Part shown: positions 16,560 through 43,000 of the stretch, piece after piece
Layout: every line of letters begins with the position of its first letter
Numbering within the stretch: the stretch's first letter is position 1
Assembly (NCBI GenBank): GCA_948470475.1
Contig: OX419335.1
Coordinates: 26,043,161-26,107,160 of the forward strand
Direction of reading: 5' to 3'
Origin: Galaxea fascicularis
Lineage: Eukaryota; Cnidaria; Anthozoa; Scleractinia; Euphylliidae
DNA: 64,000 bases
Notes under the pieces: model-generated
Databases searched by the model: none
What the model was told of the DNA's origin: nothing
The model's input: only the letters and a program-made list of their open reading frames with translations
Made by a program: the position numbers and the translations under genes

Positions 16560-16654
16560 CTTGCGATCAGATTCTTCTTATCCAACGTCTGTCTACAGTA
16601 TCATGATCAGCAATACTTTTCATTCATTCATTCATTCATTCATTCATTCATTTT
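16454..16654. repeat. Microsatellites around Ly6 B exon 1
   Basis: A run of aagc units lies at about 16454-16477 in the intron beside the donor. A run of attc units lies at about 16618-16652, just upstream of the gene, where it could fall in the promoter or 5' untranslated region. Confidence 0.85.
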
Positions 16655-17514: not shown

Positions 17515-18340
17515 AGGTCGGCACACACGATGGGACTAGTCCCTGCGCGGCTAGTCCCTTGAAGAGTTTACACGAAGGGACTCGGCTGGTCGCAGGGACT
17601 AGTCCAATCGTGCGTGCCGATGCGGGGACTAATTTGCACAGGAATATGGCCAAAAACTAGGGCAAAAACGTATTATTATTTCACCGCTTCAAAGTGAAAT
17701 TAACAATGTAGCATTGAAATAAACAGCGCATACAGTACAAACTGCGCTCAGATTGTTTCGCTAAATTGTTAAATTCAATGTTTGAATTTTTCCAATTGAG
17801 TCCGTTGTCAACAGAAACTAGTTCTCATATGCCGCAGACCTACCTGCGACATAGCCGCCGGTAATGCCTGGGATAAAATATTATTGTTCCGACATATGAA
17901 AACATACGCCGCCGGCATGAAGAACAATCAAGGTGTTTACCGCCGGCACGCCTGCGAAGTTGACTTGAGTCCAACTTCGCAGGCGTGCCGGCGGTAAAGA
18001 CCTTCGATGGTTTTTAATGCCGGCGGCGTATGTTCTCATATGTTGGAACAGTGTCCCAGGCATTACCGGCGGCTTTGTCGCAAGTAGGTCTGCGGCATAT
18101 GAGAACCAGGCTTAACGTTTTCTTACCGATCTGGATATACTCAAAACGAACAGTTCACACGCAGGGTTTTCAGGGACCAGTCGCCGGGACTTGTCCCACA
18201 AATTCAAACCAGTTTGAAATCGTGAGACTAGTCGCCGGGACCGTGACCAGATTTTTGGCTAGTTCACACGATGAGACTGGTCCCCGCGATTTGCTGCAGG
18301 GATTGGTCGCAGGGCCTAGTCCCATTGTGTGTGCCGACCC
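17515..18340. mobile_element. PIF/Harbinger-like foldback element with nested palindrome
   Basis: The left end reads AGGTCGGCACACACGATGGG and the right end is the inverted GGGTCGGCACACACAATGGG. TAA flanks both sides (17512-17514 and 18341-18343), matching the 3 bp TWA duplication of PIF/Harbinger transposons. Subterminal gactagtccc-type words recur in both arms. There is no transposase; the interior is occupied by a second palindrome (17821-18106). Non-autonomous, 826 bp. Confidence 0.78.
17821..18106. repeat. 286-bp palindrome nested in the larger element
   Basis: The left arm starts gttctcatatgccgcagacc and the right arm ends with its inverse. The arms are about 135 bases each and include inverted ccgccggtaatgcc and gccggcacgcctgcgaagtt words, with a centre near 17965. 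It probably is a separate foldback element inserted into the 17515-18340 element. No clear target duplication is visible. Confidence 0.75.
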
Positions 18341-18719
18341 TAACTCTTTGGCGACTACTTGACTTATGCATGTCGGCGCGTGACGTGACGCGACCGTCAA
18401 TTGGAGCGAATGCAAAATGCTAAGCATGGATTGATTCCGAACGTCCTGAGAAAACAAGCGACAAAACTAAATGTTCGCAGAGACGTAGCATGTTGAGTGC
18501 CTTAGCTCTTTGATATGCTTTGAACTTTTGCCCACCGTATAACAGTCTGATATATTTAAGATTCTTTCCTGAAAACCGACACGTTCAAACCATCATCAAC
18601 AACGATGGCGACGAACACTGAGTTGTTTACGCAGCATCTTGAGTTCGCTACTTCGTTGCCTTTCACTTACTTGGAGATTGCAAGATTTCTTGTGCGGCCC
18701 GCTATATGTCTTAAGAAAC

Positions 18720-19295
18720 CAGTGTTGAAGCCCGTTTGGAACGTACGACTGACTTTCACAACATTTTATCCATCCATAGAGATTTTCTTGATCCTGAGTG
18801 AGTCACGCTTCAGGCGTTGTGACCCTTGTGAGACATTATAATAATAATTGGTATTGTCTACGTCAGAATGAAAATAACCAGCTACAGTCACTATGGCAAC
18901 TCTCAGCGACGTCAACAGTGATTTTTCGTACTCAACAGTACCGTAATGGATCGTAGGGTGGTGATCGAGTAATGATGATGTTGTAGACGGCTCGGGACTG
19001 AGTGGTGAGCTTATGCCTGAGCTGCGTCAGAGTTTGGGTTCCCCGTGACTCATCTCGCACTGTTGTATATGTTAAAGCATATCATACAAAGCATATTCGT
19101 GCATGGGAAGGAGACACATTGAAAGTACATGCTCGAGTGAAAATCAAGCAATAGTTCAACGTTAAATTTCCTTCCACTATGAATACCCTCCAGTCTTCAA
19201 CCATTCCGTTAAACATTGACACTCTGAAGATCAAGAAAGCGTTTATAGGTGGATAAAATGTTGTTAAAGTCAGCCGTAAGTTCAAAACGGAACTG
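18720..19295. repeat. Diverged inverted pair with coding-like similarity
   Basis: The plus strand at about 18733-18795 and the minus strand at about 19285-19222 are similar (gactttcacaacattttatc against gactttaacaacattttatc). In one frame each gives related peptides (RLTFTTFYPSIEIFLIL and RLTLTTFYPPINAFLIF). This could be a foldback repeat or an inverted duplication of an exon. I do not recognise the peptide. Confidence 0.4.
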
Positions 19296-21908
19296 ACATC
19301 TTGGGCAAAATCAAGTGGCCTCATCCCAAAACAATTAACGTAATGGCACTGGATTGAAGTTCCGTACAAAGTAGCGATGTTAAGAGAAGTTTTGTCCCTA
19401 TTGCAGAATATCTAATGCAACGAGAAACAGATGAATGACAGCTCTTACATGGTCAATAATTCAGTTCTCAGAGATAGTGACCGTAATTTATGCAAATACA
19501 CACACGTCTCTTCTCAATTCAGACATCCACTGACTCTGTTGTGGTTTCCGCGATCATGTTTGAAACTTCTGTCATCCGTACCAGAAGGCTATTATTGAAC
19601 GTCCAATGCGAACACATCATATGCCGGCCCACTTACGACAAGCTGACGTAGTTTCCCCGCGGTTTGTTTTTGAAGTATTACTTACAAGCCGATACTGATA
19701 CAAACTTCCTTTTACTTGGCAATTGATCATCGGTCGCTCTCTAGTGCCCCGCGGCTTTGCTCGATTTGGAATTGTCATAGATCCACAAATTAAGGTCAGT
19801 TTTGGTTAAACGGTTCATACCTCTGAAACTATAATCTAAAGCCAGACAAACAAGCATGAACAGTTTCCGAGTAGTTGAATTGCCGGAGAATTGTCTCGTT
19901 TTGAGAGTTGTCTCGGCAATATACATGTGCCGAGGTTAGCTGACACCTGATTTCGATTCAAATTAAAAGCGTCTTTTCGCAGAAAAGCAAAAGTTTATAT
20001 ACAAGGTTTACAGCAACATCCTTAAGCTGACAAATGAAACGCGAATGCGAGATCCGCGACAAGTACTAAGTTTTTGTTCACTTCCTCGTCGAAGGCTGAT
20101 CTATGTTATATTACAGAACCAAACTACCAGAGAGCAGACATTGCGACCTCGAGAAATTTGAAATTGTCGGCTATAAACTACATAAAAAAAGAATCAAAGC
20201 TATAGACTGAATGGACACTAGTAAATCACAAAAAAATAGCGCGAGTGTGACAAACAGATGGTTGTGCAACGAGAACAATCTTCGGTTGTGTTGCATAATT
20301 GGACCGTTAATGATTGCTTGTTATTCACGTCGGGCAGACGGGTTCAGTTACGGGTTTACAAGTTTACCACTAGCAGCGAACTCGGGTAGCAAATATTGCC
20401 ACGGCAGTAGCTCGCTAAAAACATGCTCAAACCGCATGAAAAACACTCTACACAGCTTGTGGCAAAAGATTCCTTTTGTTGAGTGTTGAACCGGATACTC
20501 ATACATATTGCATATCGGAGACTTTGCATAAGAAAGTGTTCCTGTTGTTGCTTGATATGGGGATCCTTAACTGAGCAGGTGTGCCAATGATGAGCAGGAA
20601 AGTAACCACGAAACAAATTTAGTTGTCGCTACGAAGGGTGACATCTCAGAGAATAGTGGATTTCGTCAACCTGTTGAAAGGTATTTGGAAAAAAATAATA
20701 ACTGCCACGAGAATAAGATATCGCTGTTTTACTTTCTTGTTAGAATCTTACTCATGTCACTGATCTATTATGATACTTGCGTTTACAAACGGCAGAGACA
20801 AGATGATGAGGTTGGTGCTTTGACCAGTACAAAGGCTCGATCAAACAGATAACAGAACTTCGAAGTTTCAGCGAGGAAATCATTAATTAACTACTCTTAA
20901 CATTCATACGCATTCTTGTTCAGGGCATTTAAATTTTATGCATAGACGGCATATTTTTAAGCGATGTTAATAGACCCCAACAGAAAACGTATTGTGGTCT
21001 TAACTCATTTCTAGATGATATTTTGTTTTATTTTCGACAGTATTTTGTCGGGAGAGCTTTGACAGGGGACATTATCGAGATGCAAGGAACTCTTTGTGTA
21101 GCATATCGTCTGGTGGCGGTTTTGACACTTTGGAGCTGCAGTATGCAAAGTTAGTCTGTTACGTAATAAATAACCTCTCATTTTGCAGCAGTATTTATCT
21201 GCCCAAGCGCTGAAAAAGTAGGGAAACAGGACGTTAGCGAGGACAAAGGAAACGTAAACTAAAAAAGCATTTCTTATTGTCAAGTTTACTAATTACTCCG
21301 GTACAGAAACCAAGTTGGAACTATTTTAACCAGTTATTTCTTTCACAATAGTGCAGGAAACACTGCGTCGGATTTGCTTATGGCGTAAATAACAGTTGGA
21401 TGTTGGATTTTGGCCCGAGTATTTGGGTTTAATGACACCACCCAATAGTGAAATGAAAATAAACGCAGGTTTAATGCAAATTTGCATGTGTTTTCACAGA
21501 CAAACGCGTATTTTTTTTAAACAAGAATATCCTTGTCATGGTTCTATCGTATGTAATGGTTGTTTTTATGAAAAACGTGAACATATATCAAAGAACAAAC
21601 ATTCTTGCCTACACCAGGACATGATGTTGTGATGGTGTATACTGACACGAAAAAGGATTTGAAATTGTTAAGTAGCTTACACGAATCCCGAATCCCGAAT
21701 TGTCATAGTACCACTGTAAAGAGTATGGAAAAGAACAAAGTGTGGTATTGTGCTTGTTAGAGAGAAACTGTGTCATATTGTGATGATTAGTATCATTTTG
21801 GAAAGGTGCTGAATCATTGTATGTGTGGTCACGCTTTAGTTGTTAGAATATTTATAACTCATAACAATGGTGACGAGAGCCATGAGTCTGCACTTTTTTT
21901 TTTTGTTT

Positions 21909-22276
21909 GCTGTGGCTACATGGCCGGTAACCGGCCAAGGTGATAAAAACACTAAATGACGGGCCGTCCGATATTTTTCTAAAAATTGTCAAATCAAAGA
22001 ATCCTGGCTAATCCAAACCATCGTATGTCGATTAGGAAAAGTTAAGCGATCCTGAAATGACTTTGCTGGGCTTATTGGACGAACCCTAATTCGTGACACT
22101 TAGAATTCTTTTTTAGGTCGACTGCCGGCCAAGGTGTTAAAAACATGAAATAATCATTTTAGGATCGCTTGACTTTTCCTAATCGACATACGATGGTTTC
22201 GATTAGCCAGGATTCTTTGATTTGACAATTTTTAGAAAAATATCGGACTGCTGGTTACCGGCCATATAGTCACAGC
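21909..22276. mobile_element. Foldback MITE, 368 bp
   Basis: The ends gctgtggctacatggccggtaacc and ggttaccggccatatagtcacagc are inverted. Internal arms of over 100 bases are also inverted, including gatatttttctaaaaattgtc, caaagaatcctggcta and atcgtatgtcgattaggaaaa with their complements. The centre lies near 22090. No open frame is present. Superfamily not assigned. Confidence 0.75.
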
Positions 22277-23415
22277 GTTTTTTATTTTCGTTCTTTAGAA
22301 ATAGCATATGTTATTCGGCTATAATAGCACTACTTTATTGAAATACATATGCAATGATTTACGCCGTGACCTTATTTGAAAACGAGCTATGTTTTTCCAA
22401 ACATAGCTCTCCGGCTTATCGTGAGCAATTATGAACTTATTTATTTGGTGTATTTTGAAAATCTGTTGTAAACCCGATGAAGGTTTTCATTCAGTTCGGC
22501 GCCTTCAACAAGCAAAACCGTAAAACGGTCATTTTGTTAACTGAATGTAAGATCTCTAGCGCCTGAAAACTGACCAGAAACCGTCGCCATTTGCAAAAAG
22601 CTCCTCTAGGTTTAACAAATTAAAATAAATGTCATGAATCCGGCAGCACATTTATTATTGTGACGACAGATCTATGTACTTGAGTATTTTTCTCAACGGG
22701 TAAAGTATCGGAGTATTGCTGGTTTTGCGATCTCTATATTAACAAACGGAGTTAGGGCTACGAGGCAGTAAGTTCAGTCATTTCAACTCAGCAGCATCAT
22801 CGAAACTAACGAAACAAAAATCTTTGTCTTTTCCTATTGAGTCTCTGCTGAATGACATGTGGTGACGAAATGCAATATGTCCTCGGATCAGAGATGTTCC
22901 ACCTGTTTTTGCATCAGGTGGTTTTTCTAGGCTACAAACAAATACTACCGTCTTGTTTGAAACTGGTTGGTATTGCATTCTTACATTAAACATGGCTTTA
23001 GCATCGCAGAGCTATAGTCACTAAAATGAAATTAACGATCAGGATTGTACCAGTTTCCAAAATTCACGGAGATGATTAGTAAAACAAAAAGGAGCAATTT
23101 ATGACATTTATACGGATGTAAATCATTAAAAATGCTATCTCAAGGGCAGACTGGACAGTATGAAGTTGTTGTATGACACAGATTGAACGGCAAGCTGTGT
23201 CGCGTAAATTTAAGGGGCTATGTCATAGTGATTTTAATCGTTTTGAGATCATGATAGAACCGTCAAACACCATGCATAACCAAAATGTTCTTAAAACACC
23301 AAAACAAATATATCAAGCTATTTTCTCAAATGGACAGCAAACAACAGTCTGTATTTGGCTATTTTTCCAAAAGCCGTAGCGTCTAAATCGGTCTTAAAAC
23401 TGATAATTCTTGCAG

Positions 23416-25625
23416 GCACCCATTGTTGTCAAGGAAACCGCACTCTTTACTTCATTGACGACCACAGCATTAACTGTATGGAGATTAATTCACTTGATCA
23501 ACCGAATCCCACCGTAGTCAAGATAGTTACAAACATCCCAGAGGGTGCAGCGATCGACATAGACGTTCGAAACAAAATTGTGTACTGGAGTGATACCCAT
23601 GCGTGGACTATAAACAAGAAGAACTTGACGTCCGGGGAAGTTAAGGTCATTCTGAAGGAGAATATTGGAGAGGTTAACTCCATAGCGTTTGAATGGGAAA
23701 GCGGCCTCATCTACTGGGCTGATTTTCTGTACGAGAGAATAGAAGTAGCGAATGCAGATGGCAGTTCCAGAAAGACCTTGGTGACTAAAGACGTTAAATC
23801 TCCACTTGGGATTGCTGTTGATCCCGCCAGCGGGTAAGTCGACTGTCTTGACCTATTAATCTTGTTCTCGTCACATAACCTATTCGTTTTACCGCCCTCT
23901 CCTCTCCTCCTCGTCATCATCACTACCACACTCATTGCCTGCATTACCATTACCTTCAGCAACATCACCACCGCTACACCAGCCCCTCCTCCATCATTAT
24001 CTTTCCCTTCTCTTCCCTGTCCGTCACCATCACCATCACCGTCTTGATAGGTATCAGCATCCTCGTCAATGTAGTCAACATCGTCACCATTGCCATCACC
24101 ATCACCATTACCATCGCCAACAGCTAGCCAACGACATCACCTTCACCATCACCATCACCATCACCATCATCATTGTCGTTATCACAACAACTGTCAAATT
24201 TTGAACGTACGGTGATCAAAGCTTCAAGTTCTGATAGACTCTCAGGGGTCTTTCCAGAAATTTTAGTGCTTTCAGAAGTTGTGACTTGAAAGTTATCCGG
24301 CTAGGTGTGCTTGATTATGATGCATTTTTGTCCATCTTCAGATTTGGACACCCCGAATAACTCAAAGTATTGAAAAACATCACAAGATAGTTTTACCGCC
24401 CTTGTTCATTTTTCAATGATTATCGCTGCATTCTTGTCCCATTTTTCCCGCTAGATTAATTTTGTAGAGAAAGATCATTTTCAGCGTACTTGAAAATTAA
24501 AAGACAATTACAAAAAAAGGGGATGCTAGATCTTGGATTAATTTCACAATTGTCTGTTAACCTGTTATTCTCTCATTTCATTTTTTTAGATACATGGTTT
24601 GGGCAGACTACGATTACGCTCAACGGAAGATAATGCGTGCAGATCTAACGGGCGAAAATCAAATAGTGCTGGTCAACTCGTATTCATTGTTCGGACTTCC
24701 GTTGCATGTAGTCATCGACCACAGCACAAGCCGAGTTTACTGGACAGACATCCAATACGCATTCGCAGTCATTGGTTCCGTGAAACTCAATGGGCGTAAT
24801 TTTGCATACGAAAAATATCTTTCCATAAGATATTTTCCGTATGACTTAACTATCTTTCAAAATAATCTTTACTGGGCTGATGTGAACTTGAATGGAATTG
24901 CGTGGTTTCCTTTCAAAGATTCGTCGGTGAAACGTGTGCAAACAGTTGATGATCTTTCCCCACACTCTGTGGTCGGAGTCGTGGTGTCAGATCTTACAAG
25001 ACAACCTCTAGGTATGTTGAAATCAGTTTTTCGAGGCATGCAGAACCCTCGATATAAAAGACCTGATAAAACCCACATCCACTATGAGTGACAACTGGTT
25101 GCTAACACAATTGTTTAACGAGTAATATTTTTGTTGTCACTGGCGCTGATGTAGACGCCCCTAAATTTAAGTGCGCTAAAATTCCGTCGTAATCGGCATT
25201 AACTTACAATATTAATCAAAATTTAATAGAAATTTACTTTTGTACAGTTTATGACTCTGTAAATCAGTAAATTTGACGCGTTACACATTTTTCAGAGATA
25301 ATAGAACAACAAATATTCTGAAAAGCTTAAAAATATGCTACAATGTATAGGATTTTTGTTCCAAATTGAGGCATAATAATACGTGGTTACTCCCAAGTTT
25401 CTATTTGCATCCCAGCAGCCTTTACCAAGACCAGCTTTTCCCGTATATTTATAGACCGCGCAGAAATTACTTTGTTCAGGAAGAACGGTCCGTAGGAACA
25501 CCAAAATATCCCGAGTGATCTCGAGAAGTGCAAAACGAATGCGCAGTAAAAAACAGACTTTGTCCTTAATCAACCTCATCAAATATCCAATAGAATTACG
25601 GCTTAGAAAATTGGGTTGGACTTAT

Positions 25626-25677
<52 letters not shown>

Positions 25678-28600
25678 ATTAATCAGCCTTCCTCAAGGGG
25701 CTTTTCAAGACTAATTTACAATACTGTTTCGGGGACTTTTAACCAGACTGCATGGTGCAGTTTACAATCATTAGAGTAAATCATAGATGCCCTCAGCACT
25801 AGGGGCGGTCACAGCCAGGGTTCGTTACGTTCCTAGTGGTTCTTTAACGTCCCACGGAATTAATTGCGAAGAGTTGTGAGACGGGACCTCCGGTTTATCG
25901 TCCTTATCCGAGAAAACTAGAAAGTCTAACCATTTGCAGATGTCATTGCAAAGGAAGCACTTTCTCCTCAGTAATTTAAAGACCCTGAGTGTTGGTCCGA
26001 ACTGGGGCTTGAACCCACGACCTCCCGCACGGTAGTCCGGCACTCTACCAACTGAGCCAACCGGTATTGACAAAAGTAGACATTGGCCTTCTAAGCAGAA
26101 GAAAGCCACTGAAGCGGGGTATTGGAAGGTGGTGATCAAATGTGTGTGTGGTTTTTTATAGCGACTGGAAACCAACCGTGCTCAGTAAATAAGGGAAACT
26201 GTAGTGACTTATGCTTGTTAACTCCTGGACGTGGAAGGAAGTGCGCATGCCCACAAGGCATTAACTTGGATCCTGACGGCCTGACTTGTAATGGTAAAGA
26301 TCCACTTTTAGTTCATACACCATAAAAGAGAAAAATTTGAAAGCTTTGCTGGTACAACAGCTGGAAAATGAAATTGTCGACTCTTATGGGATATCCCCTC
26401 CATGAGCTAATTGATTGATTGATACATTTAGGATCTTAAGAAACGACGACGACGACGGCAACGAGAACGCCACAAAACAATGGGATTAATGAGCCAAAAC
26501 AATACTCTGCACGTGCGTTTTACATTTTGGTACATTTCTTTGCCGTCCTCTGCGAACAAATTTTAGGTTTTCTCGAGAACGTGAGCGCATGACAGCAAGT
26601 TTTTCTTTTGTTTTCTTTGCTTTAAAACCGTTCACAGTAATTTAGGCCCTGGACAGCTCGCCAGCATTTTTCACGTTAAACAAATTGGAATAATCGCGAA
26701 AGAGTTACAAAAACGAGAAGTTATATTTTGAAATGACGTTCTAGTTGCCGTCACCGTCGTCGTTGCTTAAGGTCCCTATTAATGTTGGACCGACAACATT
26801 CCTTATCAGACCGTAGATATTTGGAAGCAAACAAATTAATCAAGCTGCATGATGTAAACTAAATCATCCCCTTGAATTGCAGTTAACGTTGTATGTTTGC
26901 TTTATTTGGATAACACACACTGAACTTGAAAGATATAACTGTTACCAACGCGACACCAAAGTAACTTAGGACAGAACTGCTTAGTATCATACTTTTGGCA
27001 TAGACCCATTTCAATTGCATGGTGAAAGGGAATTCTGTACTAAATGTTTCGTTTTCATTACCACTCCTGTGCGCTGCCTGACATTACTTTATGACAAATT
27101 AAATTTTTGTCCACGAAACTACTCAGGGAAACTCCATGTTTTTCTTTTATTCAAAATGGAAGCAATAGTATATTACGTTTTTAAAATGCTTTAGGTTTTG
27201 TTTTTAAATTGAATGAGTGTTTGATGTAATGCCACACAATGAGCAGAGGTTTATTTTTCTTGTAGAATCCACATCTGCAACCCAGTCTCCACCGCTGCCA
27301 GGTGGGATAGTCAACTGTTCTCAGTTATTTACATTGATGCGAAATAACCCTTGTAATTTTGTAGTTAAGGTAGGGGTAACAAATAACACTCGTGGCTAAT
27401 CCAACCTCTCTGTTAATTCAGGCTTAAACAAGGTAAGCATGGGGCTTACTACTACAAGATTATAACAATTTACGTCTAGTTTAGCCAATATAAAGCTAGA
27501 TAAGTTTAGTATCAGGTCTCTGTAAAAAGGGTAGGACGGCAATTGCATATGCAACTGATAAAAGTACCTTGAAAAGTGTAAAGATTCCAATACGTTTTAC
27601 TTGCAGAATAAGTAACAACAAAACTTGGTTTGAAAGTGCACTTAACAGAATGTTTGCAAAGGGGAACTCGATTTTAATAGTTTAGCTGTTCAGTCACTGC
27701 CCCGGTGCATATATCCCTTAAGTCGTTGTATCTTGCATTGTATTTTATGTTAGTTCCAAGTTTGTATTACCTTTTATGTTCTTTTACTACCGTGATTTTT
27801 TATCGTAGTTAGTACACGACCGGACCCAACAAGTGTGTATTTGCTTTAACACTTATCGTGTCTAAACAAAGGATCTTGTCATGACTTGCTTTGAGAAATA
27901 TTACTAAGTTACTGATAGCTTACTTTTGGGGGTTAGTTGTCCGGGTTCGTCTGGTTGGCAGCTCATTGGATAATCAGGGACGGGTTGAAGTGCACTACAA
28001 CGGACAGTGGGGAACAATATGCGACGATTACTGGGGCCTAGCAGAGGCACACGTTGTTTGTCGGATGCTGAACTTTTCAGGCGCAGAGTTTGCACTTCGT
28101 AGAGCCTTCTTTGGCCCTGGACGACGGTCCTCTCCAATCTGGCTGGACAGCGTAAAGTGTCGAGGCGACGAGAGCACGATTGCTGCTTGTCGACACGATG
28201 GCTGGGGACAGAACGACTGCCGACACTCAGAGGATGCCGGTGTGGTTTGTTGGAGGGAGTCGGCACCTGCTAATCAAGGTACTGATTCCTTTTAGTTACC
28301 CACCCACTTAAGCTAAGTTCAATTATTTAATGAGGTTAACACCGGTTTCCTCGTTTACCTTTAAACATCTAAAGTACTATTGACATTATTTGTTACCACA
28401 GAAACAACATAAACCTGTTAGAAACAGGGCTAATTTCAGCTATAAGCAATGATAACTCAAGAACAAGCTCGTGGACCCTATTTTTAATGGGAAATAGTTA
28501 GCGTCAAGTTGCATATTTTAGAAAATCTAAGTTGGCTGTAAATATTCTCCTTGATTTTGTTTTTAAATTTTGCAAAATGTTGGACCTCGACAGGCTAATT

Positions 28601-31600
28601 ACTGTTGCTTGTTAAACTGTAGCTATGGTCATGTGCTATGTCAACAGAGTAGCCATAGTTTGTTCACCAATTATTGCATGGGCTTTTGATTCAAACCACT
28701 AGCGCGGTGCTAACTGATAAAGAGTGAAAGTATCAATCCATCAAAGTATACGTGTTAGAAAGTTGTGCCGGCCCCCCATAAGCAGCAAGGCAACGTAGAC
28801 GAAAATAAACGGATCGGTTTATTGACTTGGTTAGTTGTTGGGGAAAAAATTAACATGGTCTTAACTGTCTCTTTAGAACCGACTTTGGCTCCTGGACCAC
28901 ACCCAGGTATGCGTGTTTGCTTTGGAATAACGTAGAGAAGCACATAGGTAATAGCTGATAGTGTTAGTTTAATCGAATCTGTTTGTTTTGCCTTCGTACA
29001 GAGCTTAAGGTACGACTCCAAGGTGGAGATACCCAACATGAAGGTAGAGTTGAAATTTATCTTAATAACACCTGGGGAACAATATGCGACGACTCCTGGG
29101 GAATCGAAGAAGCCAATGTCATTTGTCGAATGCTAAACTTCACCGAAGGAGCCTTGAGCACGCAGTGCTGTGGTTTTTATAATACCTATGGTGTTGCCGA
29201 ACGCATATGGCTAGATGATGTTCACTGTACTGGAGATGAAGAGACCATTGCAGCATGTCGCCATCGTGGATGGGGAAGACACAATTGCAGACACACGGAA
29301 GATGTTGGAGTTGTCTGCAAGCATTCACTAGTATTAGCTCCAGGTATACGTAACTAACAAAATTTGATCATTATCTTTTTAATAATGAAAATTCCTGTTT
29401 TTCGTCTCATTGTTCAAGCTTCTTTCTTATCATTTTGTAAGAGGGGAAGCTCAGATGCCTTTTAGTACCTCTTCCTTCTTCCCCAAAAATTACTTTTCTA
29501 AATTATATTCTGTCGTCGTCTTAACCCAGTTTCTCAGCCAATGTCACATTAAACAGTTCTTCTCAGGACTACACTCACACGGACGATCGTACCTCACTTA
29601 GTTATGACATGACTCCTGGGTTCAAACCATTTACCATTTACGATCCTCAGTAACTGTAATCATGGCCAATTAGTGCAAAGGCTAAGGCTTAAACAACAGC
29701 TATTCCGATCTAACGTTGGCAACAGCTTATGCAATATTCTATGTTATGTTCTTTAGACCAAATTGTGAGACTGGTAGGCGGAGCGAGGGAAAGCGAGGGA
29801 AGAGTTGAAGTATTCCGGGATGGTCAGTGGGGAACAATTTGTGATGACAATTGGGATATCAAAGACGCAAACGTAGTATGCAGTATGCTTAATTATTCAC
29901 GAGCGTTGCGTTCTCCACACCACGCATTCTTTGGCACGGGAAACGGGAAAATCTGGTTGAGCAACCTTGACTGTGTTGGCAATGAAACGTCTATCCTGCA
30001 ATGTGAACACGAGGGAGGACAAGTCGACACTTGTGACCATCACGAAGATGCATCTGTGATTTGTGAACGGGATGCAGCAAACTTAGGTGAGATACCAGTA
30101 GTTAACTGAGCCCGAACCTTAGGGAGCATAGTGGAGCTAACGTGATTGAAATATGCAAAATGGGGAGCAAAACAAAGAACGGTAGCCATTTTTGGAGGAG
30201 TAAACCAGTCTTCTGGGAATTAAACTCTATTTTTGTGCCAAATCTCTCTTTTGTTTCAATAATTAAAAACCAATATGGCCGCTGGTCACTTGAGCGAACA
30301 CCCTCTACAGGGCCGTGTTACATTTTGAATGAATTCTAACCCTTCACGAGATTTAATTACCACCGTCAGCGTTTCTTTGGATCCCTATCTGATTACATCA
30401 GTTTCAATTTTCCAATCAAAATGCAAGAACCGGCATCAGAACCAAGTTATAAACTTTTCATCAAAAGAACCATAATTGAAAGAATTTCTTGTCCAGTCCC
30501 CCACTGGCAGAATGTAACATGTTAAGTTTTCAGTAGCATTTAATGTATTAGGTAATTAAGCTTTCGAGATACAATGATGATATTTTTAACTAAACGTATC
30601 TAGCTCTACCTGGTCTTTTTAAAAATTTACTACTTACTCGACAAAAGATGACGAAAGGCTACCAAAACTGATCTGAGATATCTCTACATGGTAAAGCTAC
30701 GAAATGCGCTTCTGCAAAACGTCATATTTAATGGAAAACAGATTTTCGTAGACCTCAACTTGAAAAATACACTGCCGTTCACAAAGAATTTATGTGTGCG
30801 CCATGTAACCAAAGTAGTCTATTCTTATTTTTAAGAATCAAAGAGCTTTATCCTGGCATGCGAGAGCGGGCGGAGTTTGATCTATCATTTACCACTGGAC
30901 GTCGGGTCATCTGAGAAAGGAGTACCTCTCGCTCTGGAGGCACACAGTCCTCAAGACATAACGTTTTACAGCAAGGAAAGGAAGGCTTACTGGACAGAGC
31001 AATCTGGATCGATTGTTCGTGCTCCGCTTAATGGAAGCTCAAGGGAGGTCATCATCAGTGGGTTGTTGTTTCCGACAGGTATTGCAGTAGACTCCATCGG
31101 CCAAAATTTGTTCTTCGCCGACAGAAATGGAATTAAGGTATCAAAACTTGATGGTTCTTTTCAGACACCTCTGATCAAAACAACGCCTGTTCATGGAATT
31201 ACTTTGGATAGCAAAGCTGGGTAAGGAAATCTTGCATGGTATTGACAAAAAGAAGATAATGTGTGTCTCGAAATGAAACGAGGAACGAGGGGCTATGACA
31301 CTGACAATGACAATGGAAATGACAGTGAATATGAAAATGACAACTACAGAGACAGCTAGTGGCAGTGGCAAGACAATGACAATGACATTGACATTGACAG
31401 TGACAATTATAGTGACAAAGGCAATGGCACTGACAATGAGAACGAGAATGGCAACTGCAGTGACAGTAACAGTGATAGGAACAGTGGCAATGACGATGAC
31501 AATGACAGTAAAAGCGGTAAAGTTGAGCTGGATTTTCTCGGTAGGGTTGTAGTTCAAAACCGGTCAAGCGCTGTTCATGTTGCTTTAGAAGGTTTTTCAA

Positions 31601-34600
31601 TTGAGTGTCGCAAAAGCCAAAACCAAAACAATTAATCCTACCAATCACAACAGACGAAGGCAACTCAATGAACCAATCAGAATTTGAAATAATTGCAAAT
31701 GAGCGCGTGCAACTCGCGAATGGCTTTTTGCTTCTCATTGGCTGAAAACGTGGCGAGAGTTTTGTCAACCAATCACAGAGCGAAGTCCCTTTGCTCTGCG
31801 ATTGGATACTTCGCTCACTTCACTCACGAAGTCACTTCGCCCGGTGATTGTCGAATTACTTTCGACACTCATTCCGCATAGAATCCACTCTATTTCCCTT
31901 TCAATTAACCCTCAATCCTAAAGGTTATGTATTCAAATTTCATTAAATGCAATGAAAAACAACAACAGTTCTTGATGCTTAGACACGATTTAAGGCTGCT
32001 CATTAGGTAATTAACATGCCCTTAAGATTGTAGGCTTGGCACGTTTTTCAACCAACGCCGCGGAACAATATGCAAATACAGAACGCGTTCAATATTAATT
32101 TACTGATTTCAATCAGACAAAAGTACACAAAATTGACATTCATTTTTTAATGAAGTTAATACATTGGAACTCCAATTATTCTCAGGTATATTTACTTTAC
32201 ATTAACTGGCATTACCCCACGGATAATGCGGGCTGACATGGATGGCCGAAATCAAGTAGTCTTGGCAAATTTGTCTTCCGTGAGAGGAACTACTCTTGAC
32301 ATAGAGTTGGACAAAGACAGGAAGGGCGTATATTTCTCAGACGAAACCAACAACCTGGTTAAGTATCTTAACCTCAGCAGTTTGCAGTTGTATTCTCTTC
32401 TGTCTGACCGCCCTCATCGACCGGTTGGACTCACCTTGTTTAATGGAACTCTGTATTGGACTGGCGGCAGTTCACAGACCTTTGGCGGCGCTATATACAA
32501 AGCAGACGCAAGCAATTTTAATGGCAGTGATGTGCATGAGATAGTGGATCTTCTCTCTTTTCCCAAAGGACTGCATGCTCACGATTCTGCCGACGAGGAT
32601 GATCAAGGTAAATACTATATTTTGTCTTTCTTCCTTTCCGGAATTCGAGAGATTTTTCCTTCAAGTGTTCCTAAAGATTGCACTTCCCTCAAAGGGTGGG
32701 TCGTCTTGGTACAGTACCAGACCGAACTGATTGGAATTTCTGGCTTATAGGCACCAAGAACCAACTCTTTCGAAAAAAAAAATACTGGTATTGTGTAAAA
32801 CAGCGTAGGGTAACCAGCTATTATTACTAATATTTAAATCAGGCCTTGATAAAAATTTGTATGCAGAAATGTAACAAATAGTCCTAAATGTCATTCGTGT
32901 TTGTTTTCGCCACTTTGTTAGAAATGAAGCGTTTTTAACTGCTGTGGAGTATCCACTGGTTTGCTGTAATTAATTTATTGACAATTGCACTATTAGTTGT
33001 ATCTACCATCCACTATCCACACCCCTTTGAGATCCTTTGTTCCTATCGAACTGGTGGGGTATTCCAACCACGGGAATGTTCCTGCCCAATCTAATAGACT
33101 GAATGAGGCAGGTCGTTCATGGAAGCCCATGATTACAGCACAGCCTTATATGACATGAAGCAACTCGGTTTAAAGAATCCAGCAAAGTTAAAACGACGTT
33201 TCTTCATTGCAAGCAAGAAACTGAGTACAACGAATACACCGCAATTAATTTACCCACTTTCTCACGGATAAACTCTCGTAGCCATTTTCGTAAGCGATAG
33301 CTTTTCTGAAAATACTCCTAAATTCAATTTACATTCGTTACCGCAAAGTTTACAAGGTGTGTGCTTATGCTTAATCACTTCGTTTCAGGCGACCATCCAT
33401 GTGCAAAACACAATGGCGGATGCTCTCACCTTTGCTTAATAAAACCTGGAGGTTATAGATGTGTTTGCCCAGGTGGGATCACTAAATCATGCCAGGCAAC
33501 TCCAACTTCAACGCTTCCTAAGGCGTCCATCCTGGTCTCAGTCACTCCAAGGGAAAGTCAAGGTTCAGCTGTTCTCTCGAGGACACCATCAGTAACCACG
33601 GCAGCTATGACCTCTCAAGTTATGTCCTCAATCTTTCCCAGCGTTGAGGCTTTCTCAACCTCTGCATTCTCCACGGCGTCCATCCTGGTCTCAGTCACAG
33701 CAAGGGAAAGTCAAGATTCAGCGGTTCTCTCGAGGACACCATCAGTAACCACGGCAGCTATGACGTCTCAAGTTATGTCCTCAATCTTTCCCAGCGTTGA
33801 GGCTTTCTCAACCTCTGCACTCTCCACACAATCATCGCAAGTGTCAACCACTGCTACTTCATTCATGTCTTCTTCCTCTTTCTATGCAACATCATCTGTT
33901 GCCGTCGTAACGTCTTCATCGCATTCCACTGTGAAATCATCTGCCTCGTCACTAAAGCCAACCAAACATTTCTCGAATTCCTTCCCGTCGTCCTCAATTT
34001 ATTCGATTCCAAATTACTGCAGCATGCACCAACCTTGTGAAAATGGAGGCAGCTGTCAAGCAGAGGGTTTGGGATACAAATGCGTCTGCACAAGATATTT
34101 CATCGGCCGGCACTGCTCAATAGACATAAGTAAGTTTCTGCTTTGATTTAATTCATAATAATTCATAATTCGTTCTAACACTACAAAAGCCTATTTTAGA
34201 TATCCGTTACGTTTTAATGCATGAATTATCCTTGTGAGTATCATTAGGTGCCAGGACGTAGGCAGGAGCCCATGACACAGCATAGTTTTTTAAAACTGTC
34301 GTTTAAGGATTTTACAGTCTAAAAGATCCATATGCTGATCCACAGCCGAAAAAGTGCGATTACCAAATGTCCTTTTAAGCTGTATAGTGCTTGGCGCTCG
34401 TCAGAGGAGTTCTTTGTTTGACCTTTGTTTAATTGTATGTGATGGCAATCATTTAATATTTTTCAGGAAGTGGAGTGGTTGCACTATTAATAAAGTTGCA
34501 AGAAAACCAGGTGAGCTTTGTGGTTCAAGATCAGGTGGACGTTCTTTTTATGCTAGTGTGACTGTTTCAGGTCGAATTGCAGTGGACACTATAGTTTGAT

Positions 34601-37398
34601 TCAATTTACTTTTTCTAATGCCACAGACCGAAACGTCGAACATTTACCCGAAGTGCAGCTGTGTCCCGCTCATAATTGTAGTTCAAACAACTGTTAATGA
34701 TATTTGCCTTTACTTTTCCTCAGTTTAACGAAACAGCACTGATACGCCTCATCGTCGACGGCTTGAACGTTCTCTGTGAGGATGAAAGTGAAAGATGCCC
34801 AATCCCTCTGTCAGAGTAAGAGAATAGTTAAAGCCCTCATTAAAAAATAAACAAAAAAAATTCCTGCAGGTGTATTCCATCTTGGCAGAGGGTTTTGATG
34901 CACAGGCCTATTCCGTTCCATTTTTCTAGACATCTCTAAACTTTGGTGAATCATGTTAGAAAACAGTTCTCATTTTCACGTGACTTCCTGTTTGATAAAA
35001 TACGTACTTACATTCAGTTAGCTCTATGCGATTGCCCACAGCTCTTACAGCTATGATAACCATTTCATCAGGTTACTCTTTCTAGTGATATGGGATTACA
35101 GATGCAATTTTAACATTTTTTCGGAGTCCAAGCAAAATCAATTAATCAATCAATTATTAGGCTCCAGTAAAGTTGCGAAAGAATGAATTTCTTGGTGATT
35201 TGTAAAACACTGCTGATTTGTTGAACTACTGGTGGTGCAGGAAGAGATTAGATGGTCGTTACAAGTAAAAAGTTGTGTCAACAGTTAGTGCCAACGCAAG
35301 CGGCGCAAGAACGCTTAGACAGTTTATGTTATGTTATGTCATGTCATGTTCTTTTATAGGTTGCATTCTGAATGACTCAATCTGTTTTGTTTTTGAACGA
35401 CGTCTCGTTTATTTTTCTATACAGCGCTTCAGTTATCAGTACAATACCACCGAAATGTTAACCAAATTATCTTTTATCACAGGGCCACGAGCAGAAGACG
35501 TCGTGCATTAAAAATACCTATTTTCAAACCCGAGGACGTCAAAGTTATGGAACTTAAACAGATCGGTGAAAACCTTCAAGTACAGCTGGCTACTATTAAG
35601 GCCATGCCAAGTGGTTTGCCTGCTGTTATATCCAGTGATCAGCTAAGCAATATCATCATGGAGTTAGCTTCAAATATCAGCCACATACTCGGTGGCAAGT
35701 TAATAAGTGTTATGCCCAAGTATCCGTTAACGACAACAAACACTGATTCCAGAATAACAACAGCGGTGACAACAACGTTCAGCAATATTATGCCAACATC
35801 AGCAGCACAAGCGGCATCGGCCATTTCAACGATCGCAACACGTATTGTAGCACCTGGTCCCTCTGGTCAGGGCAGAGCAGTGGCAAGCAAGACAGCAAAT
35901 ATCAGTGGAATTGTTGCAGGAGTGGTCGTTTCTGTTCTCGTTGTTGTCGTGGTTATTGGTATGGCCATCTGGTATTTCAGGTAACCTCGATTCACACCAA
36001 CTCTAGTAGCTCTCTGATGGCGTCCGTTTCAATAGCCCATCAAATGCAGGAACTTGGAGTCTTGGGGAGGGGTGAATAGCAGGGAGGCTGAGCGTCCCCT
36101 TTTCGACATAGAACTAGGGAATAAGCTTTCAAAAGATCTTACATTTTTATTGGCTGGGCGTAAAGGAGTGTATCGGGACGTTGTCAACTACAATGTGATG
36201 TATTGTAACCGGTGAAAAATCAATACCCAACTAAGAAACTCCAAACCTACTTCTAGGTTTTCAGTATGTATGTAACTGCAGAGTTATCCCTGAGAGCTGA
36301 CTTGCTTGCAATCTCTCACCACATTGTAATGGAAGTTTTCCAGTTGAATTGATCCAAGTAGAGACTCACGCATTTGCCTATGCGTCAAAGTTGAGTGGCT
36401 TGAGTGAAAAGCGGACAAATGGCAGCAGCCACGTACAATCATTGCTAAGTAACCTTTCATGTCATATAGAATGAAATCTGTATTTGGTTGGCGACAACAT
36501 TATGTCATGTTTTTGAAAACTTACTCACCTTTAGCTTCGTTTATTTTTCTCACAGACAAAGAGTGTTTAATCTGATATTTCCGTTAAAAATGGTTAAACA
36601 AGGAAATCTGAGACAGAGATGATCATTTGCTGATTTAGTTTTTATAAATTTATCTATTTGGAGATGTACTTATTTTTGTAACAGTGGGTTAAAAAGAAGA
36701 AAATTCAGCCCAGTAATTTTAGGCAAATTTGATTTCACAGCTTCTTCTGAACTTCTGGTATATTTTTCGGCTCTGAAGCCCCAGGCCTGCCTGGGAATTG
36801 GCGAAAAAAGGTCTTTTGTGTATAAATAACCTTGTTAGGGATTGATAGCTGAAAGGCTCTGCGTATCACTGAGCAAAAGCGCCCGAGTATTATCTGAAAA
36901 TGATCATACTTTTCTCTCTCCTCTTCTGACAGGGTGCGAGTTACCATTCCATATAAGCAAGACACAAATGAACCCAAGACACACACCACCGCGTTTGAGA
37001 ATCCAGGATACGACAGTGCTGCCCATTTTGGGGGAGTTGAGGATGGACTTTATGAAGATATACCACCAGTTGTTCTCTCTCCGTTTGAAGATTTGAATGA
37101 ATTTAGTGGTGTTAGTAACCCAGTTTATTCAGCCATGGCCTCCCGTGATGGTAACCGTGAGGGTTCTGATCGATTAAGCAGCTATAAAATTAACGACAAT
37201 TTGTTTGACAAGGGGGCAAAAAATACCAGCGGAGGCGGTGCCGTGTGCCTACCTAATGATAGCAGTCTAGCCATGAAGGTCAAGGGGGAAGGCATCGGAG
37301 ACCAAGGTCCTGCCGACCAAGAAGCTCTCTCTCGCAAGAAATTACCGGTACTTGTCTTGGAAGGTCACGAAGGGTTGAACAAAGATTCCGAAATGTAA
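23416..37398 (+). CDS. LRP-like receptor with YWTD, EGF and SRCR domains (5' end missing)
   Basis: Exons: 23416-23833, 24590-25011, 26162-26293, 27266-27301, 27937-28278, 28877-28906, 29002-29343, 29757-30086, 30836-31220, 32186-32607, 33389-34129, 34467-34510, 34724-34815, 35483-35980, 36933-37398 (TAA). All borders are GT..AG and in phase, giving 1,565 residues without the start. Order: YWTD propeller (IVYWSD, LIYWAD, VYWTDI, LYWADV); EGF (26162 exon); SRCR 1-3, each in one exon and each with the GRVEV..WGTICDD core; second propeller (AYWTEQ, LFFADR, VYFSDE, LYWTGG); EGF; Ser/Thr-rich stalk; EGF (CENGGSC); SRRRRA at a possible furin site; TM helix ([22 protein letters not shown]); tail with FENPGY and SNPVY. 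LDLR-family proteins use NPxY for clathrin endocytosis; SRCR domains bind diverse ligands. Role inferred: endocytic or scavenger receptor. No LDL-A repeats are visible. The first exon with signal peptide was not found. Confidence 0.88.
24015..24175. repeat. Imperfect CACCAT microsatellite in receptor intron
   Basis: The first intron of the visible gene contains a run of cacc, catc and accat words in several blocks, open in more than one frame without coding meaning. Confidence 0.7.
25627..25676. repeat. (AAT)n microsatellite
   Basis: Some sixteen uninterrupted aat units lie in the receptor intron between the 24590 and 26162 exons, about 150 bases from the end of the SINE at 25830-26075. Confidence 0.9.
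25830..26075 (-). mobile_element. tRNA-derived SINE, second family
   Basis: On the minus strand, reading from about 26070, there is a tRNA-like head with A box TTGGCTCAGTTGGTAGAG and B box GGGTTCAAGCC, followed by a unique body (aacactcagggtctttaaat .. gttagactttctagttttc .. ccgtgggacgttaaagaacc). Its body differs from the SINE family at 6472, 8749 and 57296. It ends less than 90 bases before the EGF exon at 26162. Confidence 0.8.
26429..26778. mobile_element. MITE with TAGG..CTTAAG termini in receptor intron
   Basis: The left end taggatcttaagaaacgacgac is inverted to the right end gtcgtcgttgcttaaggtcccta with a few mismatches. Inner cgacggcaacg and gttgccgtcaccg words are also inverted. A truncated relative is visible near 17250-17345. 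No open frame. The superfamily is uncertain; a target duplication is not clear. Confidence 0.65.
29530..29640 (+). repeat. Dispersed repeat tail, copy 1
   Basis: The sequence ttctcaggactacactcac .. ggacgatcgtac .. atgactcctgggttcaaacc occurs here in a receptor intron and again at about 37745-37840. It is a 3' portion of one interspersed family. This copy lacks the upstream part seen at 37560-37745. Confidence 0.75.
31285..31515. repeat. Imperfect GACAATG minisatellite in receptor intron
   Basis: Irregular 6-base-type units (gacaatg, gacagtg, gacattg, aatgac) run for about 230 bases right after the second propeller's first exon. Long open frames on both strands here are artefacts of the repeat. 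Confidence 0.75.
33523..33828 (+). repeat. 153-bp tandem duplication inside the Ser/Thr stalk
   Basis: Two in-frame copies of a 153-base unit (33523-33675 and 33676-33828), 51 codons each, differ at only a few bases. They encode the Ser/Thr-rich repeats that begin ASILVSVT and end SVEAFSTSA. The high identity indicates recent duplication or gene conversion; the unit adds length to a probably O-glycosylated stalk. Confidence 0.92.
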
Positions 37399-38982: not shown

Positions 38983-40029
38983 CTAGCATTTGCTACTAAC
39001 AGTTGCTGCTCTGGTCGACTGAGTGCTAATTTGGCGCGATCGACGCCACTGTCTCACACCAAGCATTTGCAAGGCCATTGCTCTATATCGCCTGCTTCGT
39101 GCAAAGTAAATATAGGGATTTATAAACGAATTCCATAACGAAAACGTTTCAACCCATAGAAAACCTTCATGGAACCAACCCTTACTCATAGAAACGGCAA
39201 GTGTATAAACTATCAGGGGAATCCATGTGATTACAAATACACCAATCACAATTCCAAATGTTTTTACAGCTTTCCTTTCCTTGCTGGTCTTGATGGATTT
39301 CCTCTCCACTTGATCATTTGCCGTTTCATGATTGTGTTCTTCATCTCTATATCTCATGGACTGAATTCTTTTGCGCTGCTCATGTGCAATCTTTAAGATG
39401 TAAGAGTACATCAAAATGGTTGCTAACAGCAAAATCAAGCAGTAACTCGATAAAAAGGCATGGCTAGGTTTAAAAAAGGTATAAGAAGTGGCGATAGCTG
39501 CCGAAATCAACCAGGCAAAGGTTATAAACGTAAAGGCAAAGTTTTTGGTGATTAGCTTTGGATATCGCAAAGGCCAGCGAATCGCAATGAGTCTGTCGAT
39601 TGTGATTCCCACAATGTTGGCAATAGACGCCAGTAGAGCCAAATGACCTACAAAGCTCTTGGTTATCTTGAAGGTCGTACTGTGTGCCAATTCTTCGTGA
39701 CAGAGAACGTTGCCGATGAAAAGAGGCACATAAATTGCTGTTACTATTAAGTCCGCCAGCGACAGGCTGAAGATGAGGAAATCTGGGACAGATCGCAAAG
39801 TTGGGTTTCTTGTGATTGCAAGTAAAACGAGGCCATTTCCAAACACTCCCACGGCATGACAGAAAGTGTTGATTACAGTCAACGTCACAACTGTAGCTAG
39901 ACTCACATTCAAGACAACCACCAGGGGCACCTGTGAACTATTGGAGCAGTCTGTACAATTCAAGGAATTGGGAATGTGATTCGTGTTGTTCATCTCTGTA
40001 CTAACGATGGAAAAATGAACACAGGTCAT
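38983..40029 (-). CDS. Rhodopsin-family (class A) GPCR, intronless
   Basis: A single exon of 348 residues with seven hydrophobic segments. Hallmarks: GNGLVLL in TM1 (residues 64-70), LSLADLI in TM2 (89-95), Cys110 before TM3, DRLIA in place of DRY (145-149), TWIP in TM6 in place of CWxP (268-271), and NPYIY (NPxxY, 304-308) in TM7. The N-terminus holds sequons NNT, NCT and NSS. The third intracellular loop (about 217-255) is rich in Lys, Arg and Glu. ATG at 40029 gives the longest frame; Met13 (codon at 39993) is an alternative start just before the sequons. The second extracellular loop is very short, and Cys197 would have to partner Cys110. Intronless class A receptors of this type are commonly expanded in cnidarians; the ligand cannot be inferred. 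Confidence 0.92.
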   Translation of the reverse strand: MTCVHFSIVSTEMNNTNHIPNSLNCTDCSNSSQVPLVVVLNVSLATVVTLTVINTFCHAVGVFGNGLVLLAITRNPTLRSVPDFLIFSLSLADLIVTAIYVPLFIGNVLCHEELAHSTTFKITKSFVGHLALLASIANIVGITIDRLIAIRWPLRYPKLITKNFAFTFITFAWLISAAIATSYTFFKPSHAFLSSYCLILLLATILMYSYILKIAHEQRKRIQSMRYRDEEHNHETANDQVERKSIKTSKERKAVKTFGIVIGVFVITWIPLIVYTLAVSMSKGWFHEGFLWVETFSLWNSFINPYIYFARSRRYRAMALQMLGVRQWRRSRQISTQSTRAATVSSKC

Positions 40030-43000
40030 ACACTATTCAGTTTTTCCCTCGTCGAAACTTTAGCTTTTCTGTCCACCAATGATATCAATTATTCCGTTGG
40101 TAACGTGGAACCGGTTAATTATCCAGGCGCGTAGAACGGGAATCGCTAGCACGCCTGAAATATGAAAATAGTAAATAACAAAATTTGAGTGAAAGACTAT
40201 TCCAAACTCAGAATGAAGTTCGCTTTTTCTGACGCTTGGTAGTAGAAAGGTTACCACAGAACACGACGTTTTTTTGGCTATCCGTTTGTTGCTGCCAAAT
40301 GACTGAGAACCTTAGCTTTTCTTTCAACCCATTTTGTCCCAGAAACAGAACGAAAGGAATGACCGAGCCAGGGCCCATTACAGCGATTGTTGTAAAGCCT
40401 TCTAGGATAAAAACAGATGACGAAAAAAGGTTTTTCAATCCTGAATTGCTTCCAAAGGATTTGGTGCATCTAAATCTTTAAGTATTACACTATACACAAA
40501 TATCGTTAGAGGTCCGCAATAGATTGTTCCAATTTGGTGTTCCGTCAAGTTTGACTCTGATTTTATGACCTGGTGTCGGATTTACGAAATCCCACCTAAG
40601 ATGTGTCTTCAGATACAACTCAATAGGGGCTTAGGATGCTTTCGTGAATACTGCCCCATAATTGTCTTCGCTTATTACAGAACGAAGAGCGTACTTGCTG
40701 TCTATTGAATAAAAAGCACTTTTGGGTCTCAGATAACGTACAAGAACGGAGCTACGATGCTCTTATAGCTACTTCAAACATTTATTAATTACCTCTGTGA
40801 ATTAGAAATCAGTATTTACGTCTTATCAGTTAAGCAAGGCAATTTCAAACATCTGTAACTTTATTTTGGTAAACAACCGGCAGGTCTTGAGATCGAAAGC
40901 TGCCAGGTGAGAGACGGCCGACCACATAAAGGGAAACTCTCAAGTGCTAAAATCCTTACGTCAAGCGTTAGGTAACGAGACCAAGAAAATTCAACCTCGC
41001 CTATCAATGATAACCACGGTGACTCATGGCCCTGTAAATTAAGATGATCTAACCTGTTATGTACTAAACTAAACGGTGAAAGACGTTTGACAGAAGTTTT
41101 GACAAAATCTTAGATTAGTCCAGATATCATCTAAAGTCGTGGAACATCATGCTATGCGCAATAGGTGTGGATAAGGTTCAATCCTTACGCTGGAGTCAAT
41201 TGGTTAGTTAGTCTGTTTAGAAACAGGCTTTCGTTTTAAGGTTATTGTAGTATCGATGATGTAATCAAATAAGATCGAGCGGAATTATGGGTGATTAAAT
41301 CAGATTAAATTATTGGCGTTGACTGAAGTGGATCTGTGCGTGTTTTGAGTTGAATCCGAATGTTTCATGTTATTGTGAAACACTACAATGATCACGATCC
41401 CATCTTTGAATGAATTTTTCATATTTTGCTCACAACAAAACAAGCTACAAAGAAACGAGCGAACAAATTAACTATTTCCTCTAACGGGTACTGACTGAGA
41501 TGAAGCGATTGACCTAATCAATGTTTCAGTGGTTTCATGTGTTGTCTCTGGCTTTGTGCACAATAGTACCACGCTATCCTGTCTTAAACCAAACCTTTTT
41601 TCTGCTTCTCCACCGTTAAAATATAATTGTTGAAATGCACAATAAAGCGTCATCTGCGGACTAGGTATCAAACATTCAAAATAAAAGAAATAAGAACTGC
41701 AAAATACTTTATATGACACAAATAAAGAATGTGCAGATTAAGACATGCATTAATGAAATGGAACTACTTGGGACCTTTTAAACAGTAATCCTCCCCCGGG
41801 CAGTGTGAAGTGTAACTTCTTTAAAATTCAGTACACGTTTTGATGGAGGGATTTTTTTTTGTCATTAGGTGATTGCGCAATTCTGTTCTACAACATGTAC
41901 AGTTTGATTCTTATTTCTCATATTGGCTTATTGGAAACTGTGGCTTCAAAAGCGGAAAGATTTTGAAATAAGAGATGCCTTAATTAATAGTTGAAGTATA
42001 AGCATAGTGTTTTGCGTATTGCTGATGAGTTATTTGTGACTGTAGATTCAGGTAGGCTTATGAACTCTTCTGAACTGAGATCGTTGTAGACAACTATATC
42101 ATTGAAGTCCATATAACTGAAAAAGATCATGATCTTCTTTGACACTTGTAAGTGTTTGGCTTTGCTTTGCATTGACGTGCGTTAATTATAAGTTCTCATT
42201 GTCTCCAATGTCTTTTTAAAGAAGGGCTCACAATGGCTGAAAAATCAAATAGGAGCAGATGAAAGGTCCTGTATTCGTTTTATTTGCAGCTGAAATCAAA
42301 CTTCATTGACAAATCATACAATGCGTCTTTGCTGTGTCAAGATGAGAGAAATAACCAGCCAGAAATATGTCAAAGACAACGGATTGGGAAAACAGTCCTT
42401 CTTACGCCCTGTTCATTTAGCACGCCCACGCATTAGATAGGTTCTTTTCTGGGAGTATATGTTAACCAAAAGTAAACTGACCGAGGCCTACCCAAACTAT
42501 CTGTCAACTTTAAAAATAAGAAAAGGATTAAATTAATTCTGGCCTCTGTTCGCTTTAAAGCCGCTAATAATATATATCACTACCCTGCGGTTAAGTTAGT
42601 AAACTGTACTAATATAACAGGTCTTGTGTCAAAGCAAGAATCTAAAACCATGGCCCACTCATTCTAGGTATTTAGCACTTACCAAGTGATGTCTTTGATC
42701 AGACGCTGTACTTGTGCCCCATCCACTGTTTTCGTTTACAGAAAACATAAACAATTCAACAGTTTGTAAAGCCAATAGACGCAAACCTATTTGACTCTTC
42801 TCCAAAGAGCACAAAGAGCATAGCATTCACCACCAAATGTCTACTTGTCGTGTCTCTCACGGAGTAATTATCACGAATGTGAATTTACTGATCACTTTGA
42901 AAAGACTCACCCATCCGTAAAGCACGCCACAAGAAACACTTCAATGCAATAAAACAAAGAGAGGCAATGTCTATAAAAATATCCATAAGTGAACTGCTGA

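Follow-up and report, generated by a model that had tools for sequence, protein, structure and literature searches.

Does the DNA between 23416 and 37398 in a 64,000-nucleotide window of the Galaxea fascicularis genome (contig OX419335.1, here C1:26043161-26107160 of 416.6 Mb) encode one receptor, in which a scavenger-type block is set between two LDL-receptor-type propellers, or a chain of neighbouring genes? An initial annotation of the window had proposed the former. Placing splice sites around each open reading frame (ORF), we obtained a gene of 16 exons (21882-37398, + strand; the first exon a candidate) whose frame of 1585 aa has a single terminal stop; all 15 introns are GT-AG and the phases agree at each junction. 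The encoded protein has, in order, a signal peptide, a YWTD propeller, an EGF module, three scavenger receptor cysteine-rich (SRCR) domains, a second propeller and EGF, a Ser/Thr stalk, a third EGF, a SEA-like domain, a transmembrane (TM) helix and a cytoplasmic tail (Table 1). Exon model, Pfam matches and sequence motifs bear out all the modules first named there, in the same order and on the same strand. The SEA-like domain, the 5' exon and a tandem cluster to which the gene belongs are additions of the present analysis.

The structure from exon 2 onward we regard as close to certain. A search with the joined model from 23416 to 34129 (residues 1-1000 scored) gave 1170 matches, and among the best 120 were two relatives, P0004 (1516 aa; 71% identity, 100% query coverage) and P0009 (1526 aa; 63% identity, 99% query coverage), with the same module order as the window gene. 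P0004 is encoded on a contig of 4868 nt and the longest contig for P0009 is 5093 nt; these are too short for the introns of a 15.5-kb gene and were therefore read as transcripts, so we infer from contig size that the same order is present on spliced transcripts of relatives. In tblastn searches, P0004 was colinear with the window over 23346-37395, micro-exon included; neither the 44-nt exon nor the signal exon at the N-terminus was matched separately by it. The linker encoded by the micro-exon is unchanged in P0004 and P0009. That a pseudogene, or two or three genes side by side, has been mistaken for a single gene is highly improbable: such a reading could draw on an exon prediction made without RNA from this animal and on the tandem cluster of relatives downstream, but the 16 exons lack an in-frame stop, every junction is in phase, and homologues carry the whole order on spliced-size contigs. 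At the level of these homologues, the gene passes the check set by the initial annotation against separate genes, a transcript ending before 27266 or starting after 30086. Fused neighbouring genes were rejected on these grounds.

The exons listed by the initial annotation are real, and its chain lacked four: the micro-exon, two short exons of the SEA-like domain (34467-34510 and 34724-34815) and a candidate first exon. The last comes from a looser filter asking for an ATG, a hydrophobic core and a phase-1 donor, which passed this site and one other in 3001-23410 (three rows, two nested); in alignment it falls where P0004 and P0009 have their N-termini. When the donor criterion was tightened, 8001-23416 yielded zero signal-exon candidates. 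Further 5' exons encoding LDL receptor class A (LDL-A) repeats are not supported, since in P0004 and P0009 the N-terminus is hydrophobic and propeller 1 follows it immediately.

Pfam searches of the 1585-aa model identified SRCR (7.9e-92, three stretches), Ldl_recept_b (2.6e-24, two stretches) and FXa_inhibition (4.8e-14, two stretches), with a C-terminal EGF match (0.0024) under the curated cut-off; a shorter version of the model gave concurring domains. Each propeller is followed by an EGF, making two LRP-like units, as had been claimed. When PDB chains matched over one stretch are compared, LRP6 propeller 1 is the best match of either propeller (145 bits for propeller 1, 126 for propeller 2) and LRP4 the next (126 and 116). 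Propeller 2 is the weaker of the two, and its copy in P0004 scores 125 bits to LRP4 and 124 to LRP6. Six strand motifs per propeller were located on the model and listed by hand; in propeller 2 the first motif, LIYHL, does not resemble YWTD. Also in agreement with the initial annotation, no LDL-A repeat was matched in the full model (E up to 1) or in P0004, P0009 or the Oculina relative P0053 (E up to 0.01).

The SRCR block lies between the two propellers, as Pfam and exon order both show, and its three domains of the ~110-aa SRCR type have 6, 8 and 6 cysteines in their cores. In DMBT1 SRCR8, a passage of PMC7043408 assigns exposed cations to site 2 (D1019, D1020, E1086) and site 3 (D1020, D1058, D1059, N1081) and reports that changing D1019 or D1020 leads to loss of binding to the tested ligands. 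We mapped these residues by a motif expression that scored 11 of the 12 SRCRs of four family proteins, the twelfth being unmatched. Site 2 is intact in 10 of the 11, the exception being Oculina SRCR1, and site 3 is intact in all four copies of SRCR2 and in none of the seven other domains. Since both sites are complete in SRCR2, it is, to judge by its residues, the best candidate for cation-bridged binding. SRCR2 also carries an additional pair of neighbouring cysteines (T[QH]CCG), retained in all four family proteins, which could possibly form a vicinal disulfide. The SRCR exons, the first EGF exon and the linker exons are phase 1-1, and both propellers enter and leave in phase 1; a SRCR block could therefore be inserted between two LRP units with the frame intact, and the exon structure fits an origin by in-frame exon shuffling.

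The C-terminal part contains a domain that Pfam overlooks. An AlphaFold2 (AF2) model of the orthologous juxtamembrane stretch of P0004 (pLDDT 80.1, pTM 0.74) has a SEA-type ferredoxin-like fold adjoining the TM helix. The Pfam SEA model gave no match on the 1585-aa protein at E up to 1, the stretch had no PDB sequence match, and relatives gave sub-threshold Pfam matches to Amnionless and KIAA1549 that overlap the TM. The loop of P0004 aligned to RRRR is disordered in the AF2 model; the polybasic site noted before is predicted to sit in a loop of this juxtamembrane SEA-like fold rather than in a bare linker, a placement new here. RRRR is present in P0004 and P0009 also, P0053 having just KR. 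Beyond a single TM read from sequence, the tail has the NPxY signals expected from the earlier reading: the model contains one RRRR, one FxNPxY and two NPxY motifs, P0053 having FxNPxF at the first. A tail segment past NPxY, PPVVLSP, is kept in three of the four family sequences. The stalk (33493-33999) is 44% S+T across 169 aa. Within its exon a 153-bp unit is tandemly duplicated in direct orientation at 33522-33827 (96% matches), a lengthening that in alignment is not in P0004 or P0009.

Table 1. Features of the receptor gene, in window coordinates. The slash in the exon 1 donor marks the exon end.
Feature	Position	Strand	Details and basis
Exons 1-8	21882-21939, 23416-23833, 24590-25011, 26162-26293, 27266-27301, 27937-28278, 28877-28906, 29002-29343	+	
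Exons 9-16	29757-30086, 30836-31220, 32186-32607, 33389-34129, 34467-34510, 34724-34815, 35483-35980, 36933-37398	+	
Candidate exon 1	21882-21939	+	ATG and signal peptide MSLHFFFLFAVATWPVTGQ, phase 1 out; donor weak (AAG/GTGATA)
Propeller 1 (exons 23416-23833, 24590-25011)	23416-25011	+	P0004 65% and 59% per exon; Pfam
EGF 1, LRP type	26162-26293	+	FXa_inhibition match; 74% to P0004
Linker exon, 36 nt, phase 1-1	27266-27301	+	Weak tblastn match (83%, E 3.4)
SRCR 1, one phase 1-1 exon	27937-28278	+	6 Cys in core; Pfam; 80% to P0004
Micro-exon, 30 nt	28877-28906	+	Linker EPTLAPGPHP between SRCR1 and SRCR2; tblastn match 28876-28917, alignment
SRCR 2	29002-29343	+	8 Cys incl. vicinal CC; both exposed cation-site residue sets; Pfam, motif mapping
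SRCR 3	29757-30086	+	6 Cys in core; Pfam, alignment
Propeller 2 (exons 30836-31220, 32186-32607)	30836-32607	+	tblastn, alignment, motifs
EGF 2, Ser/Thr stalk, EGF 3 (single exon)	33389-34129	+	Pfam, alignment, sequence reading
SEA-like domain, predicted (exons 34467-34510, 34724-34815, start of 35483-35980)	34467-35720	+	AF2 model of P0004, structure matches
RRRR convertase-type site, loop of SEA-like domain	35493-35504	+	One RRRR on model; read from sequence
TM helix	35901-35978	+	Read from sequence by eye
Cytoplasmic tail and stop (intron 35981-36932)	35979-37398	+	154-residue tail
FENPGY (FxNPxY)	36994-37011	+	FENPGY in 3/4 family sequences, FENPGF in P0053
SNPVY (second NPxY)	37114-37128	+	SNPxY in 4/4 family sequences

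Identity of the window gene to its relatives over aligned positions is 64.3% of 1490 (P0004), 56.2% of 1492 (P0009) and 43.8% of 1396 (P0053). P0053, from Oculina patagonica, keeps this module order but carries one more propeller-EGF, placed behind the second; the N-terminus and start of propeller 1 are missing from its sequence. Searches with C-termini required shared 5-residue words and so do not delimit the range of the family in other corals and anemones: that of P0004 returned two proteins (P0004 and P0009) from 4916 candidates and missed P0053, and that of Oculina returned 8 of 6349, P0053 itself and seven EGF-like matches covering 9-11%.

In Galaxea the window gene is the first of at least four gene-like units, all on the + strand, in a tandem cluster of ~131 kb, the third and fourth having been read in part. 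SRCRs again occur in threes at C1:26150212-26152221, 26166168-26168748 and 26179387-26182135, each triplet adjoining propeller and EGF exons, and the fourth unit closes with a SEA-TM-tail segment. When this C-terminal part was used to query the genome, six matches came from the searched sequence, all of them in the window gene or the fourth unit and three in each. The cluster holds 4 of the genome's 78 PF00058 matches and 12 of 150 PF00530 matches (150 of 287 candidates scored); the great majority of the genome's propellers and SRCRs are therefore in other genes. The second unit (C1:26147077-26159464) has a propeller, EGF, three SRCRs, two more propellers and an EGF, with no SEA-TM-tail match. 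The first propeller exon of the following unit begins ~200 bases past it in compatible phase; the second unit is either a truncated copy or part of a single very long gene bearing six SRCRs. Apart from the family, a very large SRCR cluster at C10:19.95-20.37 Mb accounts for ~65 of the 150 SRCR matches that were scored.

Other features of the window are on the - strand. A single-exon rhodopsin-family G protein-coupled receptor (38983-40032; 7tm_1, 1.7e-32) lies just downstream of the receptor gene. Two alike cysteine-rich Ly6/uPAR-like ORFs are at 9404-9838, with no Pfam match at E up to 0.01, and 15441-15836, which matches QVR/u-PAR-like models under cut-off. A non-LTR-like retroelement remnant (58393-61430) includes a reverse transcriptase ORF (RVT_1, 1.7e-19), which further ORFs adjoin.

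Several known systems share parts of this architecture. With the LDL receptor/LRP family (LRP4, LRP5/6, LRP1/2, LDLR) the window gene has in common the YWTD propeller-EGF units, single TM and FxNPxY tail, and it differs in the inserted SRCR block, the SEA-like domain with its polybasic site, and the lack of LDL-A repeats; because of this lack it should not be filed as a member of that family, although its frame is LRP-like. Tandem SRCRs with cation-site residues recall the scavenger receptors CD163/SR-I and DMBT1, but there are only three here, flanked by propellers and accompanied by EGF, stalk and SEA-like parts. A passage of PMC5119243 defines the SR-I class as having only SRCR repeats and no other identifiable extracellular domains, whereas propellers and EGFs are present here. 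Receptors with SEA or SEA-like domains, such as PCDH15, IA-2 and CELSR1, share the predicted fold and its position adjoining the membrane, and the Notch HD may resemble it in fold as well.

Co-occurrence of SRCR and YWTD is stated at the domain level for the sponge Stylissa carteri in a passage of PMC4772301. An Exaiptasia DMBT1 homologue, Aipgene595, is given 'additional domains' in PMC6626399, where a figure legend includes YWTD, and may thus carry it. Passages on SRCR partners name CUB, MAM, fibronectin, U-box, Ig and trypsin, with LDL and EGF in a legend (PMC5119243), an 'LDL receptor domain' of unstated type in a ctenophore (PMC11797021), and LDL-A together with, in sponge, FXa_inhibition, class B repeats not being among those named in the latter passage (PMC10855680). 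Mollusc proteins P0102 (Nucella), P0064 (Haliotis), P0059 (Mytilus) and P0001 (Solemya) have SRCRs and then a YWTD propeller, the last two according to precomputed annotation only. P0064 and P0102 differ from the window gene in having 10 and 9 SRCR stretches, one propeller, followed by an EGF, after the SRCRs, and Sushi and HYR domains; in P0102 and P0059 a TM and an NPxY tail can be read by eye at the C-terminus. A common origin with these proteins found no support: the window propellers score 145/126 bits to LRP6 propeller 1 and 69-86 to P0064/P0102 (propeller 1, 86/82; propeller 2, 86/69; P0004 propeller 2, 82/81). As the mollusc scores fall below the LRP6 score, pairwise bit scores rather than a tree suggest that the mollusc proteins are probably an independent fusion. 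Against this, the Oculina second propeller scores 115 bits to P0102 (71 to P0064); its third scores 66/81 to P0064/P0102, and scores with P0001, a fragment from Solemya, are 17-35. The claim that no characterised LRP has this order holds in so far as the open-licence literature, in the passages searched, yielded no description of propeller, SRCR block, propeller, SEA hinge and NPxY in sequence; the combination is not unique to the window gene, given P0004, P0009 and P0053 and the SRCR-YWTD proteins of sponge and molluscs. The anthozoan module order is an undescribed variant built of known parts, not a new category.

What the receptor does we infer from these parts. On balance we favour a scavenger receptor that is cleaved by a convertase, stays together noncovalently and enters the cell via FxNPxY adaptors. 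An innate or nutrient-uptake role, as first suggested for it, is a possible one. A single-pass protein at the anthozoan cell surface would present its three SRCRs, flanked in frame by an LRP-type propeller-EGF unit on either side, as a polyvalent, cation-dependent scavenger face, raised off the membrane by the mucin-like stalk; SRCRs and propellers would bind candidate ligands such as anionic glycans and microbial surfaces. A proprotein convertase could cut the SEA-like domain at RRRR to give a noncovalent heterodimer whose ectodomain is held or shed, and the FxNPxY and NPxY motifs would recruit phosphotyrosine-binding (PTB) domain adaptors for clathrin uptake. A more specific proposal is that a tandemly duplicated anthozoan family joins an LRP endocytic frame to a SRCR block that binds microbes and a SEA hinge cut by a convertase, and either internalises microbe, symbiont or glycan via FxNPxY or frees its ectodomain as a soluble opsonin; this we offer as speculative and rather unlikely to hold.

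The main rival to the scavenger reading is a signalling or adhesion receptor whose SEA-like domain is a Notch-like proteolytic switch, freeing tail or ectodomain on ligand, with NPxY as a phosphotyrosine or adaptor docking site. The predicted fold with a convertase-type site adjoining the membrane and the conserved PPVVLSP segment are consistent with it, and several SEA-like domains function as switches according to a passage of PMC6586460; we consider it a less likely explanation, to be taken seriously. The LRP6 and LRP4 matches of both propellers would also fit a co-receptor of LRP5/6 or LRP4 type (Wnt/agrin type) in which the SRCR domains are decorative. The PPPSPxS repeat is the LRP5/6-type tail motif; the tail as read here lacks it and has NPxY in its place, LDL-A repeats are absent and there are just two propellers, so that we think this improbable.

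At the level of gene architecture, the receptor gene documents a case compatible with in-frame exon shuffling, phase 1-1 SRCR exons standing amid LRP units, and it points to an unannotated SEA-like hinge in an LRP-like protein. For the study of how anthozoans recognise and take up symbionts and particles, it provides a concrete, testable candidate uptake receptor that may link microbe recognition with clathrin endocytosis.
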